IMG/VR virus record: IMGVR_UViG_3300021085_000051
Location: 1-49,064 of that record
DNA: 49,064 nucleotides
Strand: one strand, 5' to 3'
DNA from: a virus
Below, one piece after another: positions 1 through 46,252 of the stretch. The translations under genes and the position numbers were made by a program. The number at the start of each line of letters is the position of its first letter. Position 1 is the stretch's first letter. Under the pieces are notes generated by a model, which saw only the letters and a list, made by a program, of their open reading frames with translations, did not search any database and had not been told where the DNA came from.

Positions 1-344
1 AATGGGATCATCTTTTCTTCTTGATCGCCTTGCTCGTTTTTCTCTGTGATCTTTATCTTTTTGAAGAAAATAACTTCGTGGCTTTTCTCACCTTTCTTGA
101 TCTTTGCGCCCACCTCTTTCCATTTGTTGAATGTTGCAAATACTGGTGAATTGTATCCCATCACCGCCATTGTCATTCCAAGGTGCCAGCGGTTGATCCC
201 CTTGTAATCTTGTTTGTAGATTGAGATTGGTTGTCCGTTGTTTTTCGTCGTCGTTTTCCAAGGCTTCGACCAATTGATCCCCTCGTTTTCCATTAGCTTG
301 ATGACTTTGTTTGCGATTTCATTAAGAATATTTGACTGTGCCAT
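1..344 (-). CDS. ArdC-like antirestriction protein, N-terminal domain (cut by window edge)
   Basis: Reading leftward from an ATG at 344 gives 114 residues with no stop before the window edge. The pattern is that of the ArdC N-terminal ssDNA-binding domain: an early INWSKPWK stretch, then YKGINRWHLG, then FNKWKEVGAKIKKGEKS and a hydrophobic VIFFKKI strand. Known ArdC proteins bind single-stranded DNA and shield incoming DNA from host restriction; in polyvalent proteins this domain is often fused to a metalloprotease. GGAGG lies 7 bases before the ATG. A hairpin repeat (382-412) lies just upstream. If the window ends are joined, the frame ends after six more bases as F-G-P-stop, which would leave only the N-terminal domain. 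Function is by family resemblance. Confidence 0.75.
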   Translation of the reverse strand, partial: MAQSNILNEIANKVIKLMENEGINWSKPWKTTTKNNGQPISIYKQDYKGINRWHLGMTMAVMGYNSPVFATFNKWKEVGAKIKKGEKSHEVIFFKKIKITEKNEQGDQEEKMIP

Positions 345-381
345 GTTTGGCCTCCATAAGTTTGAGATTGTGATTGATATT

Positions 382-412
382 TATCCTCAACAGCTTTGCT
401 GTTGGTCGCGCG
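382..412 (-). repeat. Covarying hairpin repeat, copy 1
   Basis: Perfect 7-bp stem with a 3-base loop (388-394 with 398-404, loop TTT on the plus strand). It is flanked by constant TATCCT on the left and GTCGCGCG on the right. The stem sequence differs from copies 2 and 3 but pairing is kept. It lies 38 bases upstream of the ArdC-like start and just after the stop of the 693-418 gene. There is no T-tract, so it is not an ordinary intrinsic terminator. Confidence 0.8.
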
Positions 413-417
413 AGGGA

Positions 418-693
418 TTATTCCTCTGTTGGGATTTGAATTAAAACCTTGTGGCAATCGCTAGCCAAAACCCCAAGGTGCTGAACGTGGTGCCATTTCA
501 TAAATTGGCTTTCTTCGTCGCAATCAACGGCCCACCAGCTATGGTGCTTCTTGTCCATTTCTGCGCAAAATTTTTGATAGGTTTTGTAATCCGAATGATC
601 GTCCATTGGATCATCCATATCAAAACAGCTTTCATCGCCATTGATCAGGGCACCAGCCCAATGAGAGGGCAAATAATATTCTGCTAGTTCCAT
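418..693 (-). CDS. Conserved small phage/plasmid protein, DUF6926-like
   Basis: 91 residues, acidic and tryptophan-rich. The start LPSHWAGALINGD and the middle WWAVDCDEESQF resemble small accessory proteins of the DUF6926 type that accompany ArdC-like genes on plasmids and phages; the role is unknown. It starts 16 bases after the stop of the 921-709 gene with no hairpin between them, so the two probably share a transcript. There is no signal peptide or membrane segment. The family name is from memory of the motif. Confidence 0.65.
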   Translation of the reverse strand: MELAEYYLPSHWAGALINGDESCFDMDDPMDDHSDYKTYQKFCAEMDKKHHSWWAVDCDEESQFMKWHHVQHLGVLASDCHKVLIQIPTEE

Positions 694-708
694 GATTTTT
701 CCTTTCGT

Positions 709-921
709 TTAAGAGTAAAAGCGGCGGGTTCCTGCCCCTTCAGTTTCATCGGTTTCGAGGTATCGAAAGCCTTTGTAGTTTCCAGTTTCCATCAAGATTG
801 CTTCCAGCAAATTGCACTCACCAAGCCTTTCGGCATATTCGGAGCGATGGGACTTTTCGAGATAATGGTTCACCATTTCCTTGATGCGATTAACGTCGAT
901 TGTTTTCTTTTGTTTGGTCAT
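709..921 (-). CDS. Conserved small phage protein with NYKGFRYL motif
   Basis: 70 residues, soluble, mostly helical. It begins KKTIDVNRIKEMVNHYLE and contains LLEAILMETGNYKGFRYLE, a pattern recurring in small plasmid and phage accessory proteins of unknown function. GAGGAAAC lies before the ATG. Hairpin copy 2 (950-980) sits 29 bases upstream, making this the first gene of a probable two-gene leftward unit with 693-418. Confidence 0.7.
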   Translation of the reverse strand: MTKQKKTIDVNRIKEMVNHYLEKSHRSEYAERLGECNLLEAILMETGNYKGFRYLETDETEGAGTRRFYS

Positions 922-949
922 AATGTTTCCTCACTTTCTGATTGGGTTT

Positions 950-980
950 TATCCTCAAGGCTTTTAGCCTTGGTCGCGCG
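950..980 (-). repeat. Covarying hairpin repeat, copy 2
   Basis: Stem 956-962 with 966-972 (CAAGGCT/AGCCTTG), loop TTT, flanked by TATCCT and GTCGCGCG as in the other copies. A second small inverted repeat, GCGTAA...TTACGC, follows at 978-995. Located between the 1242-1036 and 921-709 genes, directly upstream of the latter. Confidence 0.8.
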
Positions 981-1035
981 TAAGAGAATTTACGCATCAA
1001 AACACCGCCAGATTGACGGTGCTTTCATAGGTAAA

Positions 1036-1242
1036 TTACTGTTTGGATGCTTCAATTTCGGCAAACATTTCTTGCTGCAACCGATCAAAACAGTCGAAGC
1101 GATTTTCATCGTCGGTAAATTCTCGGATGCAATCACAATAGGCTAAAGCCTTTGTGTAATATTCTGACTCATAGCCGATGTGGTGGTTTCTGCGCATTGC
1201 TCGTTTTGCTTTGCGTTCCCAATGATTGATAAGATTGCTCAT
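1036..1242 (-). CDS. Small hypothetical protein
   Basis: 68 residues, charged, predicted helical, with three cysteines and no recognised domain. It follows the 1439-1260 gene by 17 bases and carries an AAGGGAA ribosome site, so it is probably co-transcribed with it. Genes of this size and position in phages are often early host-takeover factors, but nothing in the sequence proves that here. Confidence 0.6.
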   Translation of the reverse strand: MSNLINHWERKAKRAMRRNHHIGYESEYYTKALAYCDCIREFTDDENRFDCFDRLQQEMFAEIEASKQ

Positions 1243-1259
1243 AGTATTTCCCTTCTTGA

Positions 1260-1439
1260 TTAGATGATTTCAAAAGTTACGAGGCCATCAGTCTCACTGA
1301 TCGGAGACCATGAAAGACCGTGCTGGCTGTCGATTGCGTCGATGGTGGCAATGGTTTCGTTTGACAGCTCTGGATCAGGATCGAAGTGCAGTGAAAAGAT
1401 TTCATTGATGACGTTCTGGGTAAGATTGATTGTAAACAT
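1260..1439 (-). CDS. Small acidic hypothetical protein (59 aa)
   Basis: A 59-residue frame, MFTINLTQNVINEIF to GLVTFEII, starts at an ATG with GGAG 8 bases upstream. It is chosen over the overlapping frame at 1480-1277 because that frame is serine/threonine-rich with no ribosome site, whereas this one has normal composition and fits the gene spacing. It is the first gene of the leftward block. Hairpin copy 3 lies 50 bases upstream. No family recognised. Confidence 0.65.
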   Translation of the reverse strand: MFTINLTQNVINEIFSLHFDPDPELSNETIATIDAIDSQHGLSWSPISETDGLVTFEII

Positions 1440-1488
1440 GATATAAACTCCAAGGTTATGGTTGGTTGCCTTATTGACACCCCAAATC

Positions 1489-1519
1489 TATCCTCAACAT
1501 CTTCGATGTTGGTCGCGCG
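1489..1519 (-). repeat. Covarying hairpin repeat, copy 3
   Basis: Stem 1495-1501 with 1505-1511 (CAACATC/GATGTTG), loop TTC, the same TATCCT and GTCGCGCG flanks. It sits upstream of the 1439-1260 gene and abuts a GGGGACGAT motif on the plus strand. Confidence 0.8.
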
Positions 1520-1522
1520 TAT

Positions 1523-1534
1523 AGGGGACGATCC
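1523..1534 (+). promoter_or_regulatory. GGGACGAC-type motif, variant
   Basis: AGGGGACGATCC, a near copy of the repeated TTAGGGACGAC word, about 300 bases before the terminase genes. Weaker than the others because it differs at two positions. Confidence 0.35.
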
Positions 1535-1837
1535 GATTTTGGTTTTCGGTTAAGGTTTGACCGTGGCACTCAAAAACCCTATGTTTTCAAGGCTGGGGAG
1601 CAGTTCTGAAAACGTCTTTGAGGGTCAAAAACGAGGGGGAAAACCTATAATAGAGGGCTGGTCACATCAATAAAATCAAGGACTTAGCGGGTGTGTGTGC
1701 TAAAAGGTGTGCAAATAGACAACCAAATCTATCGAAAAGGGGGGGGATAGTGGCACCCCGCGAAGTGGAATTTTGCAATTACAGTTACTCGACCCCCAGA
1801 GAAATCTGAGCAAATTTGAAAACGTCAGGAAACCATT

Positions 1838-2203
1838 ATGGGACGCTTACCAAGAAAATCTTTACCGCCTGAGAAGAAATTGACCCCTGCCCAAGTAGGC
1901 AGACTTCGATCCGACATTATGATGAAGGTGTCTGAGCAACTAACAGAGGCCCACGAAGTTGTGATGGGCAGACATGAGGATGGTTGGAACCCGACACAGG
2001 CCCGTGTCTTCGCCGCATTACTCAACAAGGTAATGCCCGACCTAACAGCCCAATTCGTCCAGCATGAACACCTGCAATCCGAGGCACCAGAGAAGCTATC
2101 GCGCAGCCAGCTTGAGGACATTGCGATGGGGATGAACGACATATTGGATGCGGAGATTGTTAGCGGGGAGGACGACGATGATAACGGCACAGGACGCAGC
2201 TAA
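1838..2203 (+). CDS. Putative small terminase subunit
   Basis: 121 residues with a basic N-terminus, a helical centre (WNPTQARVFAALLNKVMPDL) and an acidic DDDD tail, ending 26 bases inside the large terminase gene. Small terminases recognise the packaging site, form rings and regulate the large subunit. The assignment rests on position, size and overlap with the terminase rather than a clear motif. The QARVFAALLNKVMPDLTAQFV stretch is typical of phage proteins found at this place. It begins the rightward virion block. Confidence 0.6.
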   Translation: MGRLPRKSLPPEKKLTPAQVGRLRSDIMMKVSEQLTEAHEVVMGRHEDGWNPTQARVFAALLNKVMPDLTAQFVQHEHLQSEAPEKLSRSQLEDIAMGMNDILDAEIVSGEDDDDNGTGRS

Positions 2204-3779
2204 ACACCTTCTCAAACTCAAGAAAGCGGAAGAAAGCTTCAAGGGGTTTGTCCAGCTTCACAATCCAGAGTGGAAGTTGCCTGATTTCCACAAGACATTG
2301 ATCACAGCCCTGGACAGATTGGAGAGCGGCGAGGGTCCACGAAACCTTTTAATCACAATGCCGCCTCGTCATGGCAAGTCTACCTTTGGCAGCGTGTACT
2401 TCCCTGCCTATTTCATGGCGCGTAAGCCTTCTCGTTACATCATGTCCACCTCGTACAACAGCCAACTTGCCACCGACTTCGGACGCCAAGTGCGCGACCT
2501 TGTGAATGACCCACTAACTCGCCAAGCGTATCCCGACCTAGAAATGTCTCAAGACAGCCGCGCGGTTGACCAGTGGCGCACTACGGTTGGAGGGGCTGCG
2601 TACTTCATTGGTGTGGGCGGTACGACCACGGGCCGTGCTGCTAACATCTTATTGCTTGATGACCCTCTAAAGTCGCGTGAGGAAGCCGAGAGTGCCACCC
2701 AGCGCAACAAGGTGTGGGACTTCTATGTGTCTGGCCTCTCCACTCGCTTACAGCCTGACATAGATGGACAGCCACCCGCCCAGATCATCATCCTCACACG
2801 CTGGCACCCCGACGATATTGCGGGTCGGCTTATGCAGACTGACGATTGGAAGGAAGGAATGTGGTCACACATCAATTTCCAGGCCATTACAGAGAAGGTT
2901 GTGCGCGGGAAAGAGGGTAAGGATCGCCGCCAGCTTGCTCCTACTGACCCGAACTACATTAGTAACGAGGATGCGCGGCAAATATCAGCTAAGAAACGCT
3001 ACTTACCTGTCACTGAGCGCAACGCTTTATGGCCTGAACGCTTCTCATTGGAGGATTTAGAGCGCAGGGAACGTCTAAATCCGCGTGAATTTGCTAGTCT
3101 TTACCAGCAATCGCCCTTTATCCAAGGCGGCAACCTAATAAGATCGCAATGGTGGCGCACATATCCCGCTGATATGCGGCCAGAGCAGTTCACATCCCTC
3201 ATAATTGCGGCTGATACTGCGTTCAAAGCCAAGTCTACGTCCGATTATTCTGTAATGATGACGATGGGCTTAGACAAATCGGGCGACATTTACATTGTTG
3301 ACGTACACCGTGAGCGTTACGAGTTCCCTGATCTCAAGCGTAAGATGATAATGCTGAACAACCAGTGGCGTGGCCGAGGGTTGCGCGGCATTTACATTGA
3401 GGACAAGGCAAGCGGTCAGTCATTGCTGCAAGAATTGAAGCGTGAGAGCGGTGTATCCGTAATCCCTTACAAAATTTCTACAGATAAGGTCACGCGCCTA
3501 TCGGCGGTATTACCATTGATAGAGGGTGGTCGCGTTTTGCTTCCTGACAACGCGCCTTGGTTGGATGCGTTTCACGATGAATGCCAGACGTTTCCCGCTG
3601 GCACTCACGACGACCAGATAGACGCTTTATCCATTGGCCTCGACGTGTTGGCCCGTACTCCCCAGACGGGTGAGTATTATCGGCCCCCGACATTCGGGAA
3701 GCTCAACAAAGAAGACAGCTTATTCAGCCAAAAGTCGGACTTAAACCAAGGCACCTCATGGAGAAATTGGGGCGAATAA
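2178..3779 (+). CDS. Terminase large subunit
   Basis: 533 residues. An ATPase domain with Walker A MPPRHGKST (residues 61-69) and Walker B around NILLLDDP (about 155-162) is followed by LTRWHPDD, an adenine- or motor-motif region common in terminases. The C-terminal RNase H-like nuclease shows IIAADTAF and the late DDQIDALS acidic motif. It packages DNA into the procapsid and cuts concatemers. The ATG at 2178 is preferred over 2148 because GGGGAGG sits 6 bases upstream. It overlaps the preceding gene by 26 bases. The family is gp17-like, Terminase_6 type. Length is normal. Confidence 0.95.
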   Translation: MITAQDAAKHLLKLKKAEESFKGFVQLHNPEWKLPDFHKTLITALDRLESGEGPRNLLITMPPRHGKSTFGSVYFPAYFMARKPSRYIMSTSYNSQLATDFGRQVRDLVNDPLTRQAYPDLEMSQDSRAVDQWRTTVGGAAYFIGVGGTTTGRAANILLLDDPLKSREEAESATQRNKVWDFYVSGLSTRLQPDIDGQPPAQIIILTRWHPDDIAGRLMQTDDWKEGMWSHINFQAITEKVVRGKEGKDRRQLAPTDPNYISNEDARQISAKKRYLPVTERNALWPERFSLEDLERRERLNPREFASLYQQSPFIQGGNLIRSQWWRTYPADMRPEQFTSLIIAADTAFKAKSTSDYSVMMTMGLDKSGDIYIVDVHRERYEFPDLKRKMIMLNNQWRGRGLRGIYIEDKASGQSLLQELKRESGVSVIPYKISTDKVTRLSAVLPLIEGGRVLLPDNAPWLDAFHDECQTFPAGTHDDQIDALSIGLDVLARTPQTGEYYRPPTFGKLNKEDSLFSQKSDLNQGTSWRNWGE

Positions 3780-12976: not shown

Positions 12977-14143
12977 ATGGCTGGTATTCAAGGTCTTCGG
13001 GGTACAGGTCAGTTTGACAGTGACTTTCGCCCCAAAAATTACCGCGAACTTTTTTCGCTCCTCGAACCAAACGGAAATTCGCCTTTAAACAGCATGTTAG
13101 CAATGACAGGCTCCGAGGCAACGGACGATCCAAGCTATAAAAATTTCCGAGATGAACTTCCCAACCGTGCGCTTTCAGTAAACGGTGCGGTAGCTTCTGC
13201 CTCTACTACATCTATCACAGTGGATGCTGGTAACGACAACTTGTTTGCCGTTGCGGGTTCTATCATTGTGAACGCCCAAACTGGCGAAGTCATGCGTACT
13301 ACTGCTGACGCTTCGGCAACGGGCTTGGTTGTAGAGCGTAACATTGGTGGAACAAATCACCAGATTGCAGACGGGGCCGACTTGTTCATTGCTGGTACAG
13401 CATATGAAGAGGGCGCGAACTCTCCAACTGGCGTAAGCTTCGACGCAACCGTGTCAGAAAATTTCACTCAGATTTTCCGCACGGCCTTCACAGTCACCGA
13501 AACACTACGTGCAACTAACTTGCGCACAGGTGACAAAGAAGACGAAATGGCGACCAAAGCTCTCAAGATGCACATGATGGACATCGAACGAGCAATGTTT
13601 TTCGGTAAGAAAAACGAAAGCGCGGGTTCAACAGCCCAACCTCGTCGTTTCACAGGTGGCTTGATCAATACTCTATCTAACGTGATTGACCGTTCTTCTG
13701 CATCAAATACGATGACAGAAGATCAGTTTGATCGCTCGTTGATCGAAGACATCTTTGCGTTTGGTAGCAAACAGAAGATTATGTTCTGCGGTGCCAAAGT
13801 CGCTGGACACCTTCAAAAATTTGGTAAGGACCGTTGGTCCCCCCATGTTATTGAAGACACGTACGGCGTGTCACTTACGGGCTACGAGACTTTCGCCGGG
13901 ACGCTTGCGGTCCATCTTCACCCACAGTTCCGCATGGTTCCTGGGATGGAAAATGCGGCGGTGATCGTGGATTTCCCATACTTGAAGTATCGTTACATGG
14001 AAGGCCGCGACACATCGCTTTTGCGTGATCGTCAGTCCCCAGACGCCGATGCAGTCAAACATGAGTATTTGACCGAATGTGGCCTCGAATTGTTGCAAGA
14101 CAAGGTACACACATACATCAAAAATTGGGACGCAATTGCGTAA
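12977..14143 (+). CDS. Major capsid protein, SU10-like (DUF5309 type)
   Basis: 388 residues. It starts MAGIQGLRGTGQFDSDFRPKNYREL and contains the family pattern around ENFTQIFRTAFTVTETL, then MATKALKMHMMDIERAMFFG with RRFTGGLIN, typical of SU10-type HK97-fold capsids. It forms the icosahedral shell. AAAGGAG precedes the ATG by 7 bases. It stands alone between a motif/hairpin leader and a strong terminator, which fits an abundantly and separately transcribed gene. Confidence 0.88.
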   Translation: MAGIQGLRGTGQFDSDFRPKNYRELFSLLEPNGNSPLNSMLAMTGSEATDDPSYKNFRDELPNRALSVNGAVASASTTSITVDAGNDNLFAVAGSIIVNAQTGEVMRTTADASATGLVVERNIGGTNHQIADGADLFIAGTAYEEGANSPTGVSFDATVSENFTQIFRTAFTVTETLRATNLRTGDKEDEMATKALKMHMMDIERAMFFGKKNESAGSTAQPRRFTGGLINTLSNVIDRSSASNTMTEDQFDRSLIEDIFAFGSKQKIMFCGAKVAGHLQKFGKDRWSPHVIEDTYGVSLTGYETFAGTLAVHLHPQFRMVPGMENAAVIVDFPYLKYRYMEGRDTSLLRDRQSPDADAVKHEYLTECGLELLQDKVHTYIKNWDAIA

Positions 14144-14166: not shown

Positions 14167-14193
14167 AAGGGCAGCTTCGGCTGCCCTTTTCTT
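14167..14193 (+). terminator. Intrinsic terminator after capsid gene
   Basis: AAGGGCAGC-TTCG-GCTGCCCTT stem (9 bp, TTCG tetraloop) followed by TTCTTT, 23 bases after the capsid stop. It runs straight into the next TTAGGGACGAC motif. Confidence 0.9.
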
Positions 14194-26124: not shown

Positions 26125-26175
26125 TGGATAGGTAACTTCATTTAATCTGTGATCAGGTTAAATGGAGTACCTAAA

Positions 26176-29100
26176 ATGGATCGTGATCTACTTAAACGCG
26201 CACTCGACGCTAACTTTGGTTCTGGGCTTACAGAACAAGCTGATGATTATAGCTATACAAATCTAAGCGGCGTTGACCTTCTTACAAACCAAGACGCGGT
26301 TAAGGATGTGCGCGACTACTACGCGGCACAAGGCGAGACATTCAGCAACTACAGTGACATGTGGGACAAGTTCTACAGCGACAGGCGGTGGAGCGATGTA
26401 AACACGATTGGCGCAGCTAGTTCACTTATCGAAAGCTCTATGGCTGGTGATGACCGTGATCGGTTGGCAAGACTATCAAAGATTTGGTCAAATGCGCCGA
26501 TGCGCGGCACGACACTTGATCGCGTTTGGGATTACGGCAAGGCCGCAATCCTTGATCCAACAAACTTAATTCCTGTTGTGGGTCAGGCTGGCAAGGCGAA
26601 GACAGCTTTCACAGCCGCTCGCACTGCTGGCAAAACTCTACAGCAATCGAAGAATGCTGGTCGAACTGCGGGTGCTTTGGGGGCAGCTAAACAAGAGGCA
26701 ATCATTGGCGGTGCAGTCGGTGGTGCGCAAGACTTGATGAAGCAAGCCACAGAAGTCCAGCAAGGTCTTTCTGACGGTATTGATGTTGGTCGTCTTGCAG
26801 GTTCAGTAGCTATAGACGCTGGCGCGTCTGGTGTTGCTGGTGGCCTTTTAGATCGCTTCGGCACCAGTAGTGTTGGCCGCAGCTTACCCGTTGTGAACCG
26901 CTTGCTTGGCGGTGATTATGCCGATGATTTAGGCAACTGGTCGAACACTACGAACTTAGGTCAGAACTTGACCAAAAGATCGCAAGCTCTTGCAAGAGAG
27001 TTGGACGATATTGAAACCAAGTTGGGCGAAGACTATCAACTAGAAGTTGACGCTGATGACCTAGCTGAACGTAAAACCAACATCGAACTAGAGCTTGCCG
27101 AGATTGAGGCAGATGGCGTTTTAGTCGATGATCTAAACACGAAGATGGATCAGCTTGCCGAGCAAATCCAAGCTGGTCAAAAGAACGGTGTTGACGTTAA
27201 GGGCGTTCAGCGTGAGTACCAGAAAACAGCCCGTGAGTTTGAGCGCACAACTAAAAAGAAACGCTTACCTTCTCGTCAGCAAGAGCCAGAAGCGGAGGCA
27301 CCCGATGTTGAGGTTGAGGCTGAAACTGGCGATCCTCTACAGATCACAGACCAATCCGAAACCAACCTTCTGCCACCCCCTTCCCAGCGCACGGTTGAAG
27401 AGGGTGAGGTTATTGCAATCGAGCCTCAAGAGGGCCAGATTTTAGAGGTTGATGAAACTGCCGAGGTAAAGACCACGGATACTACCGAGGACGAAGCCGT
27501 AGCATTGCCAGATGTGCCGTTAGTCGCTCGTAATAAGCAAGCCTTTACACAGTTACTTGAGTCTAACAGTGACATTATTAATCAGACAGAGATCAATGCT
27601 CTTGCGTCTGAGGGCAAGCTACGTCTGACAGCCAGCACACAAGCAATCGGCAAGAATGCAATGGAAGACTTGCAAAAGATTGTCGATGAACGCCGTGCTG
27701 TACCCGTACAAGAACCCGTACAACCAGCGGAGCCAAAGGCTCCCAAAGCAGAGACAACCACAACCGCTGAAACGGTAGACGCCGATGCGGGTACATCTGA
27801 GTTTGCACCATCCGCTGACCCTGATCTGGAAGACCAAGCGGATGAACTAATGCCACGCATGATGATGGAAGTGGCGGGGTCCAATACTGATCCTCTTGTC
27901 GCTATCCGCTCTCAAGCCATTCCAGGTCGTGATGACATTAGCCCACCACTAAAGCGCATTCTGATGCAGCGTTTGAACAACTTGGAAATGTCACGCGCAC
28001 GTAAGGCTGGTGCAAGTGTTCGCCAAGACGACACAACCACGGGCAAAACCAACAGCCGCACGGCAGACCGCACCGATGTTTCTATAGAACGCTTGCAAGA
28101 TGTGCCGCCATATGTGCCTGACGAAGCCACGGGCCGCATGGTTAGAAACCCACAATATGTGGAAGCGGGTATAGGTCCGTCACAAGCTATGAAAGCCAGC
28201 CGTGATATTGGTGGTGGCAACTTCTCAACATCATCAACAGGCACTCAACCAAGAGAGTTCGCCAGAACAGCCGCAATGCGAATGGCAGAAGCCGACTCTC
28301 GCAAGAAAGAAGGCAAGCTTTTCTACCCATACACTTCGTTTGTTGGTGACGTTCACGCAGATGGCAAAACTCAATCGGGTGAAGGCGCAGTGACCGCGTA
28401 TTACTTCCCTTACATGGGCAAGTCTTTCCGCGATATTAATACAGCCCTCAAAGCGATGGAAACAAACGGGATAAAGGTCAACGAAAACTACGCTGCGTAT
28501 GACGAAGATATGGTCCCAATATTCACAGACCGCGAATATGCGTCAGAGAAAGACAAATTACTAAAACGCTTTGGTGACAAGAAAATCACCAAGAAAGTGT
28601 TTGACCAAGAACTGATCAAGCTTAACCAACGCGCCGAAGGTGCAATGGACACGCCACAAAAGAAAGAAGTGGTTGGCCGTAACGGTGAAATCATTGAGCG
28701 TGTGAAGGCTGGTATTCCAAACACCAAAGGTAAAAAGATCATTGCGGCTATTCCGCGTAGCGAATTTTCACCGTCTGGAAATCTCGTAACTTCCAAGGTT
28801 CTTTCAGCCCGTCAACAAAAATCGGGTGTAAGCGCGGAAGCTTTGATTGGGAATGAGGACGCGAAGGATTGGTACATTGGCTATGTGCCAGCGAATATGC
28901 GTACCAAGACCACCGACATTGACGCGATGATTGAGAAGTTCGAGCCTCTTAATGAAAGCAACAAGGTCGGTGAAGTGAACCGAACTAACCCAACAGCCCC
29001 ACCCGCGCCGATTGACTTAGAATCTCGCGGCGATGTTTTGATAGTTGATACAAGCTCCCTCGAAACGAATGACATAAACAACTTATTCTTTGCTTCCTCA

Positions 29101-32100
29101 CTTGCAAAGAATAAAGGGATCAACCTTTTTGGCGATGTTAAAAGTCCCGAAGACTTGCGTAGCAAAGAAATCACGTTGCGTGACCTTACGCGACTTGAAG
29201 CAATCGTGGACAACGCCCCTTGGGAAATCGACTTTAACGTGAACGGCCAATCTGTGCCGATGAACAACAAGCTGCGTTTGAGGGTTCTCGCAACATTGCA
29301 TGACCTCAACGGTAGTGTAGCTCCTAGTGGCATTCGTCGTCCATCAATCGACATTGAAGAAAGCTTGGTCAAGCTTAACGGCATCTTCGACAAGTCCAGC
29401 CCAACCACTCGTTCTAACATGGAACGATTGATGCGTATGGTTGTACCAGATCAGCTTGCGCCGATCTTTGAGACTGCCGACATGGATGCTACTGTCCTGG
29501 GCCGTTTTGTTAATGACCGCAACGATGCTCTGAACCGTATCCAGCTAAACCCAGAGGCGATCAACAAGGCACTAAAGGAAAAGGGCTTATCAGAAACACA
29601 TGTCGTCGCGCATGAGTTGGGTCATTGGGTATATAACAACCTAATGTCTAACCCCGATAAGGCAGAATTTTGGAGAGCAATAGATCAATATTATGACGGT
29701 GAAGGTCGTCTGTATAAAGATGGTGATCGTGACGCGATGCGGGACATTGCTCTGCGTAGCCCTTACTTCAAGAGCGTTAAGAAGTCTGTTGGGTTCGACA
29801 ACGCATTGGACAGCCCATCTGAATACTTTGCCAATCAGTTCGCCCTGTTTATGAACCACAAATATGACTTGATGATGTGGCCTGACACGCCGTTCTTCAC
29901 CAAGGCAATGAAGCTGGCTAAGAAACTTTGGTATCTAATGTCTCGCAAAGAGATACTTGACCCCGAACTTGAGCCGATCTTTTCAAAGCTAATCTCTCGC
30001 AAAGACTTGCAGATGCGTGACCAATTCATGCGTCCGAAAGAGCCTACAAATAAATACTCGCTCACACTTATGGCGAACTATGAGAACTTGCGCGTGGGTA
30101 AGGCCGAGGTCGATAGGGCATTTAATAGTGCTGACATTTCTGCGTTCATAGAAAAAATCAAACAACCCGAACATGGTCTTGAAAGCCAACTACGCAGATT
30201 AGTCGCAACGCAGAACGATGCTAAGTTTTATGCGCGTCGAAAAGGTGAAGAGTACAAAGGTTACACGGGTGTTTTAGAGGCGATAAAAGAAAACGGACTT
30301 GCCCAGAGACTTCGCAATGTGTTGGTCGAGTTGGAAAGTATCGGTGTGGGTCGGACTGCCGAAGGCAAGAAAAGGTTTCTTGGCACCTTTGCAACTGAGT
30401 ATCCGATTGACGACATTCAAGCTATGACGCGGGTTTATGAAAATGATCTGGTCCCTGCAATCGAACAAGCGATGAAGCAACTGAATGATTCTTACTATCG
30501 TTTGGAAAAAGGAGACATCCCCACCGCAAAACTTGACAGCTATGATCTAAAAGCGCGTCAAGAAGTAGGCATGAAAAAAATAGAACAGTCTGCAACAGCG
30601 AAGGTCAACTTTAATGAGACTTCGCGCAAGCGCAATCAGCGTGAGAATTTTGTTGCTCAGTCTATCAAAGCATTAAAGGCAAAGAAAACGGACTTTAACG
30701 AAGCTGACTTTGGAGATTTCGCAGCAAGCCAATACCCCGACATGTTGCCATTGGTTGGTAAACTGGAAGAGGCTTTCAAGAAAGGCGCGAAGCCTAAACA
30801 GGTTCAAGGCATTGCAGATAGAATGCGCCAGATTCTTTCTAGTCAGTTAGCGGTAAGCGGCCCTGCCACGGTTGTTCGTACCACCAAGGCTGGTGAGGAA
30901 GGACCATACCAACTTGCAACCACTAACGAACTTGCTGTTGTATTGCGCGAAGGTTTGATGGGTACGGGTAACAAGGACAAGATACAAGACGTAGCTTGGG
31001 AATACACGCGCCGTGATAACAAGAACAAAGCGGTCATTCCAGACAGCAACGCGGTAATCAATGCGGTCAAGGCAGAGGCCGAGTTCAACCGTGGTGGTTT
31101 GGAAGACAATGGAATTGGTAGCAATACACCGTTCATTCTATCAAACTTTCTGTCAGAGATAACTGCCCGTACACCTCAGAAGGAAACAGCGGCCCGTAAA
31201 CTGGCTACTCGCGTACTTGCTTTGGGTTACGAAATTTCGCCTGACACTCGTACAGATGATTTCAAAGAGTTCCGCACAATGTCACGCCAACTGTCTGCTA
31301 ACTTGGAGACAGAGGACATTACACAGACTGTGCGTACCCTCACGAAAACATTGTACCCTACGTCGATCTTGTCAGACGGTACGCGAAACCTGTTAGAGAA
31401 CACAGCCGCCCGTATGGGTTACGATGCGGATAGCGTTCTTGAACAACTCGTCATCGAAGACGTGGACATGACGGTAGACCGTGTGTTGATGGATCAGATC
31501 AAGGACACTTTACCTGAGTTTGAAGGTTACGAGATTGAGGAAGCTGTCAACGAAGCCAGAGAGGCAATGCGTGATGCAATCGCCTACGCAGTCAACGGTT
31601 TAGTAGATGCGCCAGAGGCCCGTAGTCGGTTCTTGCCTTTGTCCTTGTATGGGGACATGGCATCTAGTGAAAGCTTAGTAACTCGCAACTCGCCAGCGGG
31701 TGTATATACAGATGCAGTACCAGCCGAGTTTGCGTCAGAGTTTGCAGCCGAAACTATCAACCGTATGTCGCAATCTTCTGTCGATGCAGTCAAAGACTTT
31801 ACTGGGTCAGACGACATCAAAATGATGTTCATAACACCAGAACGTGCGGATTCCATATTCGGGTCACTACCTGTGATCACAGATCGCCCAGCGAACACAA
31901 TGGACGCCATGCGTGATGCGATGGTCGATAGTGCGCCAGAAGCACGTAAGACAGTGGTTGCTGATTTGATTGATCAGTCTGAAGCCATACGGAACGGTAT
32001 CAATTCCGCACGGGCAGATGGCACCGCGTCTGATCTTAGTGATCACTACCTGTTTGACAGCGTTGTTAATACTCGCCTGTCTAACTTCAAAGCAAGTGAC

Positions 32101-35100
32101 CTAACGACAACCAAGCCAGTGTTCTTGCGGGACGATAAGCCAGCGGTTTTTGGACACCAGATGACTTTCAAAGATGACATGGTTCGCGGTGTTATCGAAG
32201 CCATACGTCAATCAGCCAAAACACCTAGCCGCCTCGAAAGCATTGATAACTTTGTTGCGGATAATCGTGGACTATTCAAAGGTCGTGAGTTGTTTAGTAG
32301 TCTGTCTGAATTGGCTGGTGGCAACGAACAGTTGCGCCGTATTATGCGTCAGGCAAACTACTCCACAATAACCGTTGATGGTCAGACAGTGTTGCTTACC
32401 CCTCGAAAAGCCCGTTCTGTTTCTAGCGAAGAGTTCATCAAGGCGCAGCCGTTGCTTGGTGAGGTCGAAGTTGGGTCAGGTGCAAACGCTCACATTGTAA
32501 GTGAAGCACGTATGGCTATTGATGATGGCGAAGCCGCCGTAATGCAGACAGCAGACGCATTAACAAAAGCTGGTATGCCGAAAGGCGCAGCCAAAGCTAT
32601 GATCAAAATGCGTAAGAAGAAAAGTCTGAATGAGCGTGACGTTCAAGAGGTGCGAACCGTTCTAACAACAGACACGCAATCAGGTATCATTCGACGTGCG
32701 GGTATGCCTTCTTTGGCCGATTTCGCAGAACCATCCGATGGCAGTGGTGGTCACTTTGAGCGCATACATGGCCGCATGGCTAAGTTCCTTTCGCCTATGA
32801 CCAAGGCTTTGAACGAGTTGCCTGATAGTAAAAATCCAATGGGTCGCTGGTTTGATGCTGGATTGCGCCAGATGTATGATACGACAGCCGAGTTTGCCGC
32901 CCGAAAGGTTGGTGATGGCGAGAACATCATGGGCTTCAATGTGGTTCGCGGAGAGCAACAACCTAAGTCTCACCGTCGAATTGCTGATGCGCTTGGCAAC
33001 CAGGACCAAATGCCGAGGCTCTTGAAGACCAAGAAAGAGCGCGAGATTTATTCAATGATCCGCAAGTATTTGGATGACGTTAAGAAGCGTCTTCAAGATG
33101 CTGGTGAAAACGTAGGCGTGATTGCAGAAAACTATTTCCCGCAAGTCTGGCGCGTTGACTTAATCAATTCAAACCGCCCTGAGTTTGAACGGAAGCTCGC
33201 CAAGTATTTTCTTGCAGAACATAAAGAAAGGTTCGGCAGCAACTCACTATCGCCAGCAGAGGCCGCTCAGAAAGCAAAAGACGTTACCAAACAGATCGTT
33301 GATGATGGTGGTGTAAACCTCCCTCGCAGCAAAGTGTTTAGTGCGGGTAGTGGTCAAGAGGATTTCTTCAAAGAACGTATGCTTCGCATTGACCAGTTCC
33401 CAGAGTTCAACGATGCAAGCAACATGAAAGACAACTTAGGTGTCTTCATGGAGAAAGACTTGATGGTGGTCATGTCTAAGTATTCTGAGAATGCTGAACG
33501 CCGCCTGGACATAACTGACAAGTTTGGTCCAGAGGGTCACGGCATGACAGACTATGTGACTATACTTCGTAACACACACGATGCAGTGTCACGCCTTTTG
33601 TCTACGCACAAAATTCTCAAGCCAGACTATCACGTTCTAGCATCTGGAAATGAGCCTGATCTAAACGGTCCAGCCGTAATGAAGATGCAAGGAAACTCTG
33701 CCTTGTTCAAAGCACCGTTTTCGTCAAAAGAAAAAGCTGATTTCTTCACAGAACAGTTGGTCAAGAAAGCGGCTGCGGGTGCGAAGCGGGACGAATTGGT
33801 ACGGTCAATAATGGATCGTATGCAGCCCACAGCAGACAGTGACGAGTTCAGCGATCAAATGCGCAAGAACTTCCGTAAACGTGCGGAGGCTATTGGGTCT
33901 GCCTTGGAGGACACCCGTGGCTTCACCAAGACGCCAAGCGAGAAGAACGTGGTACACGCTGAGAAGTACATTGATCTGGTCATGCAAAAGCCAAATGGCT
34001 CAGAAGCTTGGCGCAAGGCGTCATCTGCATTGCGGATGATCAACGGTGTAACACTACTCTCGTTCACAACTCTAACGTCCTTGGGTGATTTGGTTCTACC
34101 TCTGATCCGAAGCGGTGACTTCAAGTCATGGTCTACCGCGCTGGGCAACTACATGCGCGATCCAGTGGCGGGTTCAGCCTACCGCGACATGATCCGCAAC
34201 GTGGGGGTTGCAGTGGAGAACACTGTCCACCAACGCATGAGCAACAGCTACGGGATCGACGCCAACCGTTTCACTACTGGCTTTTTCACAGCAACAGCAC
34301 TGACGCCCTGGACTGATATGATGCGCGAGATTGCAGGGGCGACAGCCTTTGAGCATTTCAAGGCAAGCGCACGTATCGCACAAGAGGCACCTAACACTCG
34401 TCAAGGTCGCTTGGCGAAACGGGCCTTGGATGAATTTGGATTGCAACCTTTGTATGACAAAGGTGCGCCTCATATCGACATGATCATGCGCAGTGGTGGG
34501 ACCGAAGCCGAACACCCAATGTATGAAACTGTGCAAGCTGGTATGATTAAGTTCGCAAATGAAAGTATCTTTGCGCCAAACAAGAATGATCTTCCACAAT
34601 GGGCCACACACCCTGCGGGTCAGTTGATGTTCCAACTCAAATCGTTCCCTCTGAAAATGTTGCGGCTTGGTCGCTACGCATTCAAGGAAGCGTTACGGAG
34701 CGATGATCCAAATTATGCGCCCCTGCTACTCTACATGACAGCAGGGCCAGCGATGGGTTTCACAGCGGCAAACGTGAAGGATGTTGTTCAGTCACGCGGC
34801 GGTGAGGACAATCGACAGGCCGAGTTCAGAGAGCGCAAGCTATCCAAAACAGTTACCCCTCTTGAGGGGATGTTGAGTGACAATGCCGACAAAGCTTTGG
34901 GCTGGTATTGGGATGGATTTATGACAATGGGTGGCTTGGGTATCCTGGGCGAACTTATGTATGACACGGTTAATCAAGTCGATAACGGTGCCTACGGTAA
35001 GGTAAGGATTGCAGAGACATTCATGGGTCCATCATCTGGATTGTTCTTCGATGCGCTTACAATCGCAGAGGGTGGCATGTCAGCAGTTGGCGATGCAATT

Positions 35101-35238
35101 TCGGGCGAAGGGACTAACGGTAAGGAACGTGCAGCAGTCAGAGAAGTTGTCAGTCGCGCCCCATTCATTGGTCAACATTCGGGTATGCGTGAAAGCATAG
35201 TTGATAGGATTGCTGGTGAAAAAGGTTCAAGAGGCTAA
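26176..35238 (+). CDS. Giant polyvalent internal virion protein with HELGH metalloprotease motif (3020 aa)
   Basis: 3020 residues, 18 percent of the window. The N-terminus has an ordered domain and a Gly/Ala-rich hydrophobic region (ILDPTNLIPVVGQAGKA) that could insert in membranes. An acidic linker follows near residues 370-550. A zinc-protease motif HELGH (residues 1146-1150) has a likely third ligand in SEYFANQF (Glu 1216). Further on come an ENYFPQVWR module and a C-terminal LPD38-like region (GGLGILGELMYD; VVSRAPFIGQHSG). Polyvalent phage proteins of this kind are thought to be packaged and injected. The start at 26176 is chosen for GGAG 8 bases upstream. No T7/N4-type RNA polymerase motifs were found by eye. 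Confidence 0.75.
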   Translation: MDRDLLKRALDANFGSGLTEQADDYSYTNLSGVDLLTNQDAVKDVRDYYAAQGETFSNYSDMWDKFYSDRRWSDVNTIGAASSLIESSMAGDDRDRLARLSKIWSNAPMRGTTLDRVWDYGKAAILDPTNLIPVVGQAGKAKTAFTAARTAGKTLQQSKNAGRTAGALGAAKQEAIIGGAVGGAQDLMKQATEVQQGLSDGIDVGRLAGSVAIDAGASGVAGGLLDRFGTSSVGRSLPVVNRLLGGDYADDLGNWSNTTNLGQNLTKRSQALARELDDIETKLGEDYQLEVDADDLAERKTNIELELAEIEADGVLVDDLNTKMDQLAEQIQAGQKNGVDVKGVQREYQKTAREFERTTKKKRLPSRQQEPEAEAPDVEVEAETGDPLQITDQSETNLLPPPSQRTVEEGEVIAIEPQEGQILEVDETAEVKTTDTTEDEAVALPDVPLVARNKQAFTQLLESNSDIINQTEINALASEGKLRLTASTQAIGKNAMEDLQKIVDERRAVPVQEPVQPAEPKAPKAETTTTAETVDADAGTSEFAPSADPDLEDQADELMPRMMMEVAGSNTDPLVAIRSQAIPGRDDISPPLKRILMQRLNNLEMSRARKAGASVRQDDTTTGKTNSRTADRTDVSIERLQDVPPYVPDEATGRMVRNPQYVEAGIGPSQAMKASRDIGGGNFSTSSTGTQPREFARTAAMRMAEADSRKKEGKLFYPYTSFVGDVHADGKTQSGEGAVTAYYFPYMGKSFRDINTALKAMETNGIKVNENYAAYDEDMVPIFTDREYASEKDKLLKRFGDKKITKKVFDQELIKLNQRAEGAMDTPQKKEVVGRNGEIIERVKAGIPNTKGKKIIAAIPRSEFSPSGNLVTSKVLSARQQKSGVSAEALIGNEDAKDWYIGYVPANMRTKTTDIDAMIEKFEPLNESNKVGEVNRTNPTAPPAPIDLESRGDVLIVDTSSLETNDINNLFFASSLAKNKGINLFGDVKSPEDLRSKEITLRDLTRLEAIVDNAPWEIDFNVNGQSVPMNNKLRLRVLATLHDLNGSVAPSGIRRPSIDIEESLVKLNGIFDKSSPTTRSNMERLMRMVVPDQLAPIFETADMDATVLGRFVNDRNDALNRIQLNPEAINKALKEKGLSETHVVAHELGHWVYNNLMSNPDKAEFWRAIDQYYDGEGRLYKDGDRDAMRDIALRSPYFKSVKKSVGFDNALDSPSEYFANQFALFMNHKYDLMMWPDTPFFTKAMKLAKKLWYLMSRKEILDPELEPIFSKLISRKDLQMRDQFMRPKEPTNKYSLTLMANYENLRVGKAEVDRAFNSADISAFIEKIKQPEHGLESQLRRLVATQNDAKFYARRKGEEYKGYTGVLEAIKENGLAQRLRNVLVELESIGVGRTAEGKKRFLGTFATEYPIDDIQAMTRVYENDLVPAIEQAMKQLNDSYYRLEKGDIPTAKLDSYDLKARQEVGMKKIEQSATAKVNFNETSRKRNQRENFVAQSIKALKAKKTDFNEADFGDFAASQYPDMLPLVGKLEEAFKKGAKPKQVQGIADRMRQILSSQLAVSGPATVVRTTKAGEEGPYQLATTNELAVVLREGLMGTGNKDKIQDVAWEYTRRDNKNKAVIPDSNAVINAVKAEAEFNRGGLEDNGIGSNTPFILSNFLSEITARTPQKETAARKLATRVLALGYEISPDTRTDDFKEFRTMSRQLSANLETEDITQTVRTLTKTLYPTSILSDGTRNLLENTAARMGYDADSVLEQLVIEDVDMTVDRVLMDQIKDTLPEFEGYEIEEAVNEAREAMRDAIAYAVNGLVDAPEARSRFLPLSLYGDMASSESLVTRNSPAGVYTDAVPAEFASEFAAETINRMSQSSVDAVKDFTGSDDIKMMFITPERADSIFGSLPVITDRPANTMDAMRDAMVDSAPEARKTVVADLIDQSEAIRNGINSARADGTASDLSDHYLFDSVVNTRLSNFKASDLTTTKPVFLRDDKPAVFGHQMTFKDDMVRGVIEAIRQSAKTPSRLESIDNFVADNRGLFKGRELFSSLSELAGGNEQLRRIMRQANYSTITVDGQTVLLTPRKARSVSSEEFIKAQPLLGEVEVGSGANAHIVSEARMAIDDGEAAVMQTADALTKAGMPKGAAKAMIKMRKKKSLNERDVQEVRTVLTTDTQSGIIRRAGMPSLADFAEPSDGSGGHFERIHGRMAKFLSPMTKALNELPDSKNPMGRWFDAGLRQMYDTTAEFAARKVGDGENIMGFNVVRGEQQPKSHRRIADALGNQDQMPRLLKTKKEREIYSMIRKYLDDVKKRLQDAGENVGVIAENYFPQVWRVDLINSNRPEFERKLAKYFLAEHKERFGSNSLSPAEAAQKAKDVTKQIVDDGGVNLPRSKVFSAGSGQEDFFKERMLRIDQFPEFNDASNMKDNLGVFMEKDLMVVMSKYSENAERRLDITDKFGPEGHGMTDYVTILRNTHDAVSRLLSTHKILKPDYHVLASGNEPDLNGPAVMKMQGNSALFKAPFSSKEKADFFTEQLVKKAAAGAKRDELVRSIMDRMQPTADSDEFSDQMRKNFRKRAEAIGSALEDTRGFTKTPSEKNVVHAEKYIDLVMQKPNGSEAWRKASSALRMINGVTLLSFTTLTSLGDLVLPLIRSGDFKSWSTALGNYMRDPVAGSAYRDMIRNVGVAVENTVHQRMSNSYGIDANRFTTGFFTATALTPWTDMMREIAGATAFEHFKASARIAQEAPNTRQGRLAKRALDEFGLQPLYDKGAPHIDMIMRSGGTEAEHPMYETVQAGMIKFANESIFAPNKNDLPQWATHPAGQLMFQLKSFPLKMLRLGRYAFKEALRSDDPNYAPLLLYMTAGPAMGFTAANVKDVVQSRGGEDNRQAEFRERKLSKTVTPLEGMLSDNADKALGWYWDGFMTMGGLGILGELMYDTVNQVDNGAYGKVRIAETFMGPSSGLFFDALTIAEGGMSAVGDAISGEGTNGKERAAVREVVSRAPFIGQHSGMRESIVDRIAGEKGSRG

Positions 35239-44645: not shown

Positions 44646-45206
44646 ATGAATTATGGTGAAGGGTTGACAAACGAGTATCATATGCGCAACTATGGGGGCC
44701 GTATTAACACACCTATAGGAGATTATCAGACGATGAATGACAACCTACGCATGGATATGGCAAGGTTGGAAGCTAAGATGGACGTTATAATTAGTATGCT
44801 CCAAAACAGGGTCGGTAATAATTCAGACGCCCCTATTAACCATGAGTTTTCAACCGCGCTTACAGTATCCGAGAGCGCATTATTACGCAGACTAACTATT
44901 AAACAACACTGTGTTGCCCAACTACTCGTAAAGGGTTGGAAGAACGCAGACATAGCCGCACTCATGGGTGTCACTGACAACACAGTAAAGTTGCATGTGT
45001 CAGCCGTGGGAAAAAAGATGGGCCTCAAAACCAGAGGACAGATCGCCGTTGCATTTAGGGATGTATGTTCCAAGTCATCCATTGGCGAATATGAAGGTGC
45101 ATCTGGTGGACTGCCCATGAATTGGGGAGACACAGCACACATCGGAATGGATGATAAGCTTGCTCCGCTGTATGCTCCGCAGAAGAAAGGTAGCAAATGG
45201 GACTGA
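44646..45206 (+). CDS. LuxR/GerE-type transcription regulator
   Basis: 186 residues with a LuxR-type HTH at about 80-145 (LTIKQHCVAQLLVKGWKNAD then VTDNTVKLHVSAVGKKMGL). The N-terminal half is short, without a recognisable autoinducer or receiver domain. It overlaps the integrase start by 10 bases, so the two are co-expressed. A sensor-less activator tied to integration is uncommon and may set the lysogeny decision. Confidence 0.85.
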   Translation: MNYGEGLTNEYHMRNYGGRINTPIGDYQTMNDNLRMDMARLEAKMDVIISMLQNRVGNNSDAPINHEFSTALTVSESALLRRLTIKQHCVAQLLVKGWKNADIAALMGVTDNTVKLHVSAVGKKMGLKTRGQIAVAFRDVCSKSSIGEYEGASGGLPMNWGDTAHIGMDDKLAPLYAPQKKGSKWD

Positions 45207-46252
45207 GTGTAAAAACCAGAGGTCGGTCCTCAATGCTGCAAGCAAAGGGATCGCTAAAAGTAAATGGAGTGATCACGCAAATTCGTGAGAGCCTTCACAC
45301 GTCTGACCCCGACGAAGCTCACCGCAAATGTCTTCAATTAGAAATGGACATATTGCTGGGCAAAAAAATAGTCGGGCGTAAGGTAAGTGCCACGCAAGTA
45401 TTGTTCAGCGATTTGATCAAACGCTTCCTTGCCGATCCAACTACTGGATCAGGTAAGACTGTGCATCAAATTTTGGAAAAGTTGGATGATCATTATGGCT
45501 CTACCCTTGTGTCAGACTTCACCAAGGCAGACGCCACTCACTACATCTACGAGAACCACACATCGAAGGGACATGGCAACAACCACACTCGCCGTGTCAT
45601 CACACAAATCCAATCGCTTCTAAACTATGCTCACGAACAAGGCTTCCGCAATGAGCGGATCACCCTTCGCAAGCCACCAGAAGACATAAAGGATTTGGAA
45701 GTTCTCTCACCATCTGAGATCGACGCGGTGTTCAAAAGGCTCAAGCCCTGCAATCGTAGGCTTGCATCCTTCATCCTCTATACTGGCGCAAGACCAGCCG
45801 AGGCATACACGCTGCGCCGTAAGGATGTGGACTTCCCTCGCAAGACTTGTGTTCTCACATCTATCAAGGGGCGCAACCGTGTCCCTCGTAAGCGCACCAT
45901 CCCGCTCAATGCAAAAGCATATGCGGCAGCGCACGGCAATCAACTTGCCGAACTCGACAAGGGCAGTGACCTTATGTTCACCTATATGGTAGACAAAGAA
46001 CATCGCCCGTATCATACTGTTGGTGGGTATTCGTACTTCATAAATGATTGGAGTGAAGCGTGTACCCGTGCCAAGGTTGTCGGTAAATCACCGTACACAT
46101 TGCGGCACACCTTTGGCTCACGCCTTGGTGACAACAACACCCCGTTTGCTGTTATCTCACAGCTAATGGGACACACCGATCCGAAGACAACGATGCGCTA
46201 TGTGCATCCCACATTCGAGGATCATCTTACTGCTGTCACATCTATTTTGTAG
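45197..46252 (+). CDS. int: Tyrosine recombinase integrase
   Basis: 351 residues. The catalytic domain has Arg 199 (GARPAEAYTLRR), a Lys in the beta-hairpin (KGRNRVPRKRT), TLRHTF with Arg 303, GHTDPKTTMRY with His 326 and nucleophile Tyr 335. The usual first His of HxxR is Tyr (SPYTLRH), as in several integrases. It joins attP to a host tRNA gene; the half tRNA sits 33 bases after its stop. Confidence 0.93.
   Translation: MGLSVKTRGRSSMLQAKGSLKVNGVITQIRESLHTSDPDEAHRKCLQLEMDILLGKKIVGRKVSATQVLFSDLIKRFLADPTTGSGKTVHQILEKLDDHYGSTLVSDFTKADATHYIYENHTSKGHGNNHTRRVITQIQSLLNYAHEQGFRNERITLRKPPEDIKDLEVLSPSEIDAVFKRLKPCNRRLASFILYTGARPAEAYTLRRKDVDFPRKTCVLTSIKGRNRVPRKRTIPLNAKAYAAAHGNQLAELDKGSDLMFTYMVDKEHRPYHTVGGYSYFINDWSEACTRAKVVGKSPYTLRHTFGSRLGDNNTPFAVISQLMGHTDPKTTMRYVHPTFEDHLTAVTSIL

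Follow-up and report, generated by a model that had tools for sequence, protein, structure and literature searches.

Leader hairpins that bring about transcriptional read-through are established, as in LoaP/dfn (PMC12691694) and put of phage HK022, the latter an RNA of ~70 nt that acts on the zinc-binding domain of the RNA polymerase β′ subunit (PMC9378689). Hairpins also form part of the promoters of phage N4, in which the template strand carries a three-nucleotide loop with purines, including a central purine at −11, at a fixed distance from +1 (PMC4496689). Here, we consider a small repeated hairpin in a 49,064-nucleotide stretch of viral DNA (IMG/VR record IMGVR_UViG_3300021085_000051, positions 1 to 49,064; hereafter "the window"). 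The TerL of the window shares 60% identity with that of Roseobacter phage CRP-810, placing it among the CRP-810-type temperate podoviruses. Phages of this type occur in seas worldwide (PMC11288001); we found no account of their early-gene control in the literature consulted. By reading, the part of the window in which a LuxR-type regulator adjoins a tyrosine integrase (44646–46252) has the identical order in CRP-810.

In the window, the pattern TATCCT-N17-GTCGCGCG has three exact matches, and any other match needs three mismatches, which is the chance level. On the minus strand, in which the leftward early genes are read as sense, these matches take the form CGCGCGAC-stem-RAA-stem-AGGATA. Copy A (1489–1519; GCGCGAC, stem CAACATC/GATGTTG, loop GAA, AGGATA) is the first in the leftward operon and lies in the 5′ leader of a 59-aa early gene with no assigned function (1260–1439, minus strand). 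Copy B (950–980; GCGCGAC, CAAGGCT/AGCCTTG, loop AAA, AGGATA) occupies the 5′ leader of a 70-aa early gene, also without an assigned function (709–921, minus strand), and copy C (382–412; GCGCGAC, CAACAGC/GCTGTTG, loop AAA, AGGATA) that of an ArdC-like anti-restriction gene, of which the window holds the N-terminal part (1–344, minus strand; Pfam ArdcN, 4e-25) before it runs off the contig end. A preliminary description of this DNA had reported three 7-3-7 hairpins with constant flanks, differing but perfectly paired stems, a position ahead of the genes at 344, 921 and 1439, and the absence of a T-tract from the hairpins themselves. All of this holds: none of the fixed bases is mismatched, the three stems all differ and are each 7/7 paired, the distance from AGGAT to the ATG is 29–50 nt, and the hairpins carry no T-tract. 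The contig ends on its left inside the ArdC-like gene, whereas relatives go on with a fourth hairpin and more early genes; positions 1–3452 of one of them, L015, correspond to the region beyond this left end, and the window thus lacks a fourth copy together with some of the early region. No tRNA, tmRNA or Rfam family was found in the window (0 Rfam matches at the curated threshold).

The relatives of these phages allow the pairing itself to be examined. IMG/VR was scanned with GCGCGAC-N7-RAA-N7-AGGAT, pairing not being demanded, and relatives identified through TerL were added. Copy A is orthologous in eight phages, with differing, compensated stems. Upstream of the 59-aa gene, the stems include AACATC (window, L042), AACCCT (L015) and AACAGC (L031, L038), and upstream of ArdC they include CAACAGC (window), CAACATC (L015) and CAAGACT (L031, L038, L042). 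Across 27 sequences, both sides change at each of the seven pairs, with 59 such cells against 14.6 after shuffling and a covariation score of 0.869, which falls to 0.223 on shuffling and to 0.15 or less on sliding; the rows for this count were chosen with pairing, and two misaligned rows with 6-bp stems are the only source of unpaired or wobble cells. A pairing-blind check of the clade loci, taking only flanks at the right spacing, gave 18 distinct hairpins, all 7/7 Watson-Crick, and chance matches to the flanks were mostly unpaired. G-U pairs are likewise missing from these 18 hairpins (0/126), compared with 32/170 (19%) in the predicted terminators of the same operons (Fisher 3e-9, a value that takes in one 5/7 chance hit and rests on pairs that are not independent). 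Absence from relatives, or stem changes left uncompensated, had been named in the preliminary description as the outcomes that would speak against its view of a conserved structure; instead, relatives retain the motif at these sites and their stems are compensated, and the conclusion that the paired structure is conserved and functional is strongly supported.

Taken over all sites, the motif can be written CGAC-stem(6–9 bp)-(U)RAA-stem-AGGA, with stems of 6, 7 or 9 bp, the 6-bp stem with a UAAA loop being one form of it; it is always untranslated and always on the coding (sense) strand. Two phages, L028 and L087, carry four copies each, ~330 nt apart; one further scan for arrays revealed no additional ones. 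Among the bacterial chromosomes of 84,980 species genomes the strict pattern gave no convincing copy, its five matches with 6 or 7 pairs (four in near-identical SAR86 stretches and one other) being judged coincidental. A TerL search of 391 genomes from the order that includes Shimia gave no match, and DNA similarity of the early region to cultured phages was confined to one chance-like match of 38 bases.

Where the motif occurs in arrays, the stem ends 32–59 nt before an ATG, each gene has its own Shine-Dalgarno sequence and the upstream distance is variable; at the operon-first sites of the L001 clade the distance to the ATG is ~110 nt. Operon-first sites share a TCGTCC box, which in the window lies upstream of copy A (1526–1531, minus strand), is invariant at these sites in 12 aligned phages, stands 8–11 nt upstream of the motif and is absent from internal sites. 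The leader of CRP-810 keeps TCGTCCCTTATACGCGTGCGCGAC with a GAA-loop hairpin; both the TCGTCC box and GCGCGAC are retained. In CRP-810 (L078), CCCGAAGGGACTTC recurs in three early-gene leaders, at 840, at 1758 (before cobS) and at 57600 of the record, with an identical hairpin core and hence no covariation among the three. The first leader of the L001 clade (L097:1–222, L102:2899–3128, L006, L088) has a second covarying hairpin on the 3′ side of the motif, this one including wobble pairs, as well as an upstream palindrome, GTTACGCA..TGCGTAAC, that looks operator-like.

A sigma-70 promoter was looked for at each motif and not found. The candidate leftward promoter is a conserved −10-like TATTAT (1647–1652, minus strand) ~130 nt upstream of copy A, a weak prediction with no clear −35. 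Farther upstream, in the divergent region before the small terminase, a run of 6–8 C residues, read leftward (G on the plus strand; window 1739–1748), is kept in 8/8 aligned phages. Three interpretations of the motif were rejected: AGGA as a Shine-Dalgarno sequence, because it lies too far from genes that already possess one of their own; an RNase III site, for which the stem is too short; and a double-stranded DNA operator, which would not be expected to have half-sites that vary yet stay symmetric.

The early operons that carry the motif are also punctuated by predicted intrinsic terminators. Strong terminators on the sense strand were predicted at 0.28–1.07 per kb in seven of the eight early operons examined (0 in that of G009), compared with 0.03 per kb in two late operons, that of the window and that of CRP-810. 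The window's 33-kb late operon has a single strong sense terminator, at 14167–14188, just past a 388-aa gene that ends at 14143 and is probably the major capsid gene. Within the early operon, the predicted internal terminator T1 (998–1022, hairpin 1002–1022, minus strand; GCACCGTCAATCTGGCGGTGT-TTT, −12.2 kcal/mol) lies directly upstream of copy B, and its distance to this second motif is constant in eight records although the T1 stem changes. A second small hairpin, GCGTAA-ATTCTC-TTACGC (978–995, minus strand), is directly 5′ of copy B, with a C-G pair replaced by T-A in L031 and L085; at this site RNAalifold returns three hairpins in a row, namely T1, GYGTAA/TTACRC and the motif.

Several genes lie very close behind such terminators. 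The next ATG follows at 47–48 nt after the terminator behind ArdC (L031, L081, L042, L085) and at 11–16 nt after T2 (L031, L015); by reading, ~38 nt separate the terminator behind the first gene of L102 and G007 from the next start codon, and the gp01–gp02 terminator of CRP-810 lies ~30 nt before gp02. These start codons, 11–48 nt behind their terminators, are reached with neither an intervening motif nor a promoter, and upstream of each terminator that lacks promoter room there is a motif or leader element. Genes so placed must rely on read-through. In a second class of site (L036, L049, G007, G009, G012), the hairpin ends 9–11 nt before an intrinsic terminator, which is followed by a TTGACA promoter and cobS; in G009 there is no internal terminator between the first motif and the motif of this class.

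We infer that the motif is read as RNA and acts on termination, and we tentatively favor, with rather less than even confidence, a nut/put- or LoaP-like antitermination signal in early-gene leaders. In CRP-810-type phages, the hairpin would act in cis, as an RNA signal within early-gene leaders that are not translated. As transcribed, the element would comprise the TCGTCC box (at operon starts), GCGAC, a perfect stem of 6–9 bp, an A-rich loop and AGGA; it would be recognized by a phage factor, a host factor or RNA polymerase itself, and the elongating host RNA polymerase would then read through the intrinsic terminators of the early operon. This proposal is consistent with the compensated stems at orthologous sites, the constant sense orientation and untranslated position, the enrichment of internal terminators in early relative to late operons, the second-class hairpins just ahead of the terminator preceding cobS, the nut-like layout (boxA-spacer-boxB) of TCGTCC, spacer and hairpin at operon starts, and the precedent of LoaP/dfn and put. 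Antitermination is preferred over a promoter for each unit because the terminators lie too close before the genes and each has a motif or leader element upstream. Other features fit it less well. One processive signal per operon is usually enough, yet there are three or four copies here; copy B sits just after a terminator rather than before one; it is unusual for a stem in RNA to be wholly free of G-U; and the terminators are predictions, with none between the two motifs of G009. Furthermore, no antiterminator protein was recognized among eight early proteins scanned; G007 encodes an Arg-rich 73-aa protein without a database match.

The other way to read the element as RNA, a 5′-leader element of the mRNA, is possible but doubtful: the hairpin would shield the 5′ ends of early mRNAs from a 5′ exonuclease after cleavage or termination, or would be bound by a protein for translation control. 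The position of the array-class stems, 32–59 nt ahead of genes that have their own Shine-Dalgarno sequences, suits such a role, and the constantly spaced order of terminator, linker, hairpin and gene at copy B is what processed mRNA ends would show. However, the second-class hairpins close an operon on its 3′ side and are followed directly by a terminator and a separate promoter, so that they have no mRNA start to protect, the ATG is ~110 nt away at the operon-first sites of the L001 clade, and the enrichment of terminators is left unexplained; we think that antitermination fits better than RNA processing or translation control. The G-U contrast invites a reading as DNA. In an N4-like DNA-hairpin promoter, the palindrome would extrude and be bound by a virion-borne or other polymerase, with transcription starting at the GG of AGGAT. 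Short stems, three-base loops and a GG beside the stem base occur in N4 as well, the DNA hairpin energies are similar to that of N4 P2, perfect Watson-Crick pairing without G-U is what a DNA hairpin would demand, and the arrays consist of motif-genes-terminator units. The likeness to N4 early promoters raised in the preliminary description nevertheless finds no support, and the two reservations expressed there stand. The loop polarity is reversed, the template-strand loop being TTY (TTT or TTC) where N4 needs purines, and no single-subunit RNA polymerase (PF00940) was detected in the left-truncated window or in the relatives G007 and G009 (~55 kb each) by a search that found those of T7 and N4, although a strongly divergent enzyme, or one encoded beyond the truncated left end of the window, might have escaped it. 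Moreover, AGGA always adjoins the base of a stem that can be 6, 7 or 9 bp long, so that the distance to a start site is not fixed, second-class sites would yield an RNA of only ~45 nt, some hairpins stand directly before a terminator that a separate TTGACA promoter follows, and several genes behind terminators have no motif. The 3029-aa virion protein of the window, P0001, has no significant BLAST match to the N4 vRNAP and lacks the Rx3Kx(6-8)YG motif (motif B). An N4-like promoter is thus unlikely. Encoded at 26149–35238, this giant protein has a zincin-like HELGH motif and corresponds to two separate proteins of CRP-810, gp35 plus gp34, so that either a fusion in the window or a split in CRP-810 has taken place.

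The absence of G-U pairs from the hairpins, set against 19% in adjacent terminators, would suit a DNA hairpin more generally, and single-strand DNA-hairpin promoters served by a polymerase of an unrecognized kind outside the N4 group are also conceivable; improbable though such a reading is, it draws some weight from this absence and from the motif-gene-terminator units seen in the arrays. A DNA-level site unrelated to transcription (a recombination boundary between gene cassettes, a transposase-type hairpin, or a priming or origin hairpin) is very improbable. The gene-sized spacing of ~330 nt in L028 and L087 and stems that are nearly all different within one genome, without G-U, would suit it; the strictly single orientation, the restriction to early operons and the tie to leaders and terminators argue against it, and no Y1 transposase or relaxase was found among the subset of gene products scanned. 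Finally, quasi-palindrome correction by template switching yields perfect palindromes without wobble, and a hairpin kept perfect in this way might have no function at all. The stems do have this appearance, but flanks, loop type, orientation and position are fixed across several phage clades, and perfect pairing at 18 of 18 pairing-blind clade sites, next to unpaired chance matches to the flanks, makes a neutral product scarcely credible.

If antitermination is correct, the joint presence of a compact signal, repeated and covarying, and of early operons punctuated by terminators would amount to a new antitermination design; the less likely alternative is that hairpin promoters exist in a second kind. 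Both the TCGTCC...GCGCGAC leader and an internal terminator are retained in CRP-810, so the question can be tested in culture with an isolated phage.

It is informative to compare the motif with described elements in this light. The N4 vRNAP promoters (PMC4496689, PMC3715699) share with it a three-base loop, a stem of 5–7 bp with free identity, a GG close downstream and an early location, and differ in loop polarity, in the stem length (6–9 bp here) and in having a known polymerase, none having been found here. The SAS/ESAS repeats of cluster K mycobacteriophages (PMC3203893) also bear inverted repeats upstream of some small genes in one genome arm, with unknown function; the ESAS inverted repeats are 17-bp, imperfect and conserved in sequence and abut the start-associated repeat, whereas the motif is short, perfect and variable. 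In LoaP/dfn (PMC12691694), too, a small hairpin in the leader precedes an operon that contains several intrinsic terminators, although this system belongs to Firmicute chromosomal operons, has a UNCG-type loop and uses a NusG paralogue, none having been seen in these phages. The lambda nut site (boxA-boxB) with N (PMC3526286) has, in early leaders, a conserved single-stranded box, a spacer and a small hairpin whose stem varies and whose loop is rich in purines. In the motif, however, the box is TCGTCC, which does not match boxA (CGCTCTTA), the loop is a triloop RAA or UAAA, there are extra conserved CGAC and AGGA flanks, the element is repeated along the operon, and no N protein was found among the early proteins scanned. 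The put RNA of HK022 (PMC9378689) is also a cis-acting hairpin RNA in the early leaders of a temperate phage with terminators to read through; it spans ~70 nt, has two long bulged stem-loops and occurs once per operon (putL, putR), whereas the motif is one short perfect hairpin in up to four copies, and we claim no sequence relation. In structure, copy B has two adjacent hairpins over ~45 nt, most sites having one. We do not file the motif under put, nut/N or LoaP/dfn, the defining sequences or partners of which have not been recognized here. Nonetheless, it has in common with phage processive antitermination signals, as a functional class, that internal intrinsic terminators lie downstream of it.
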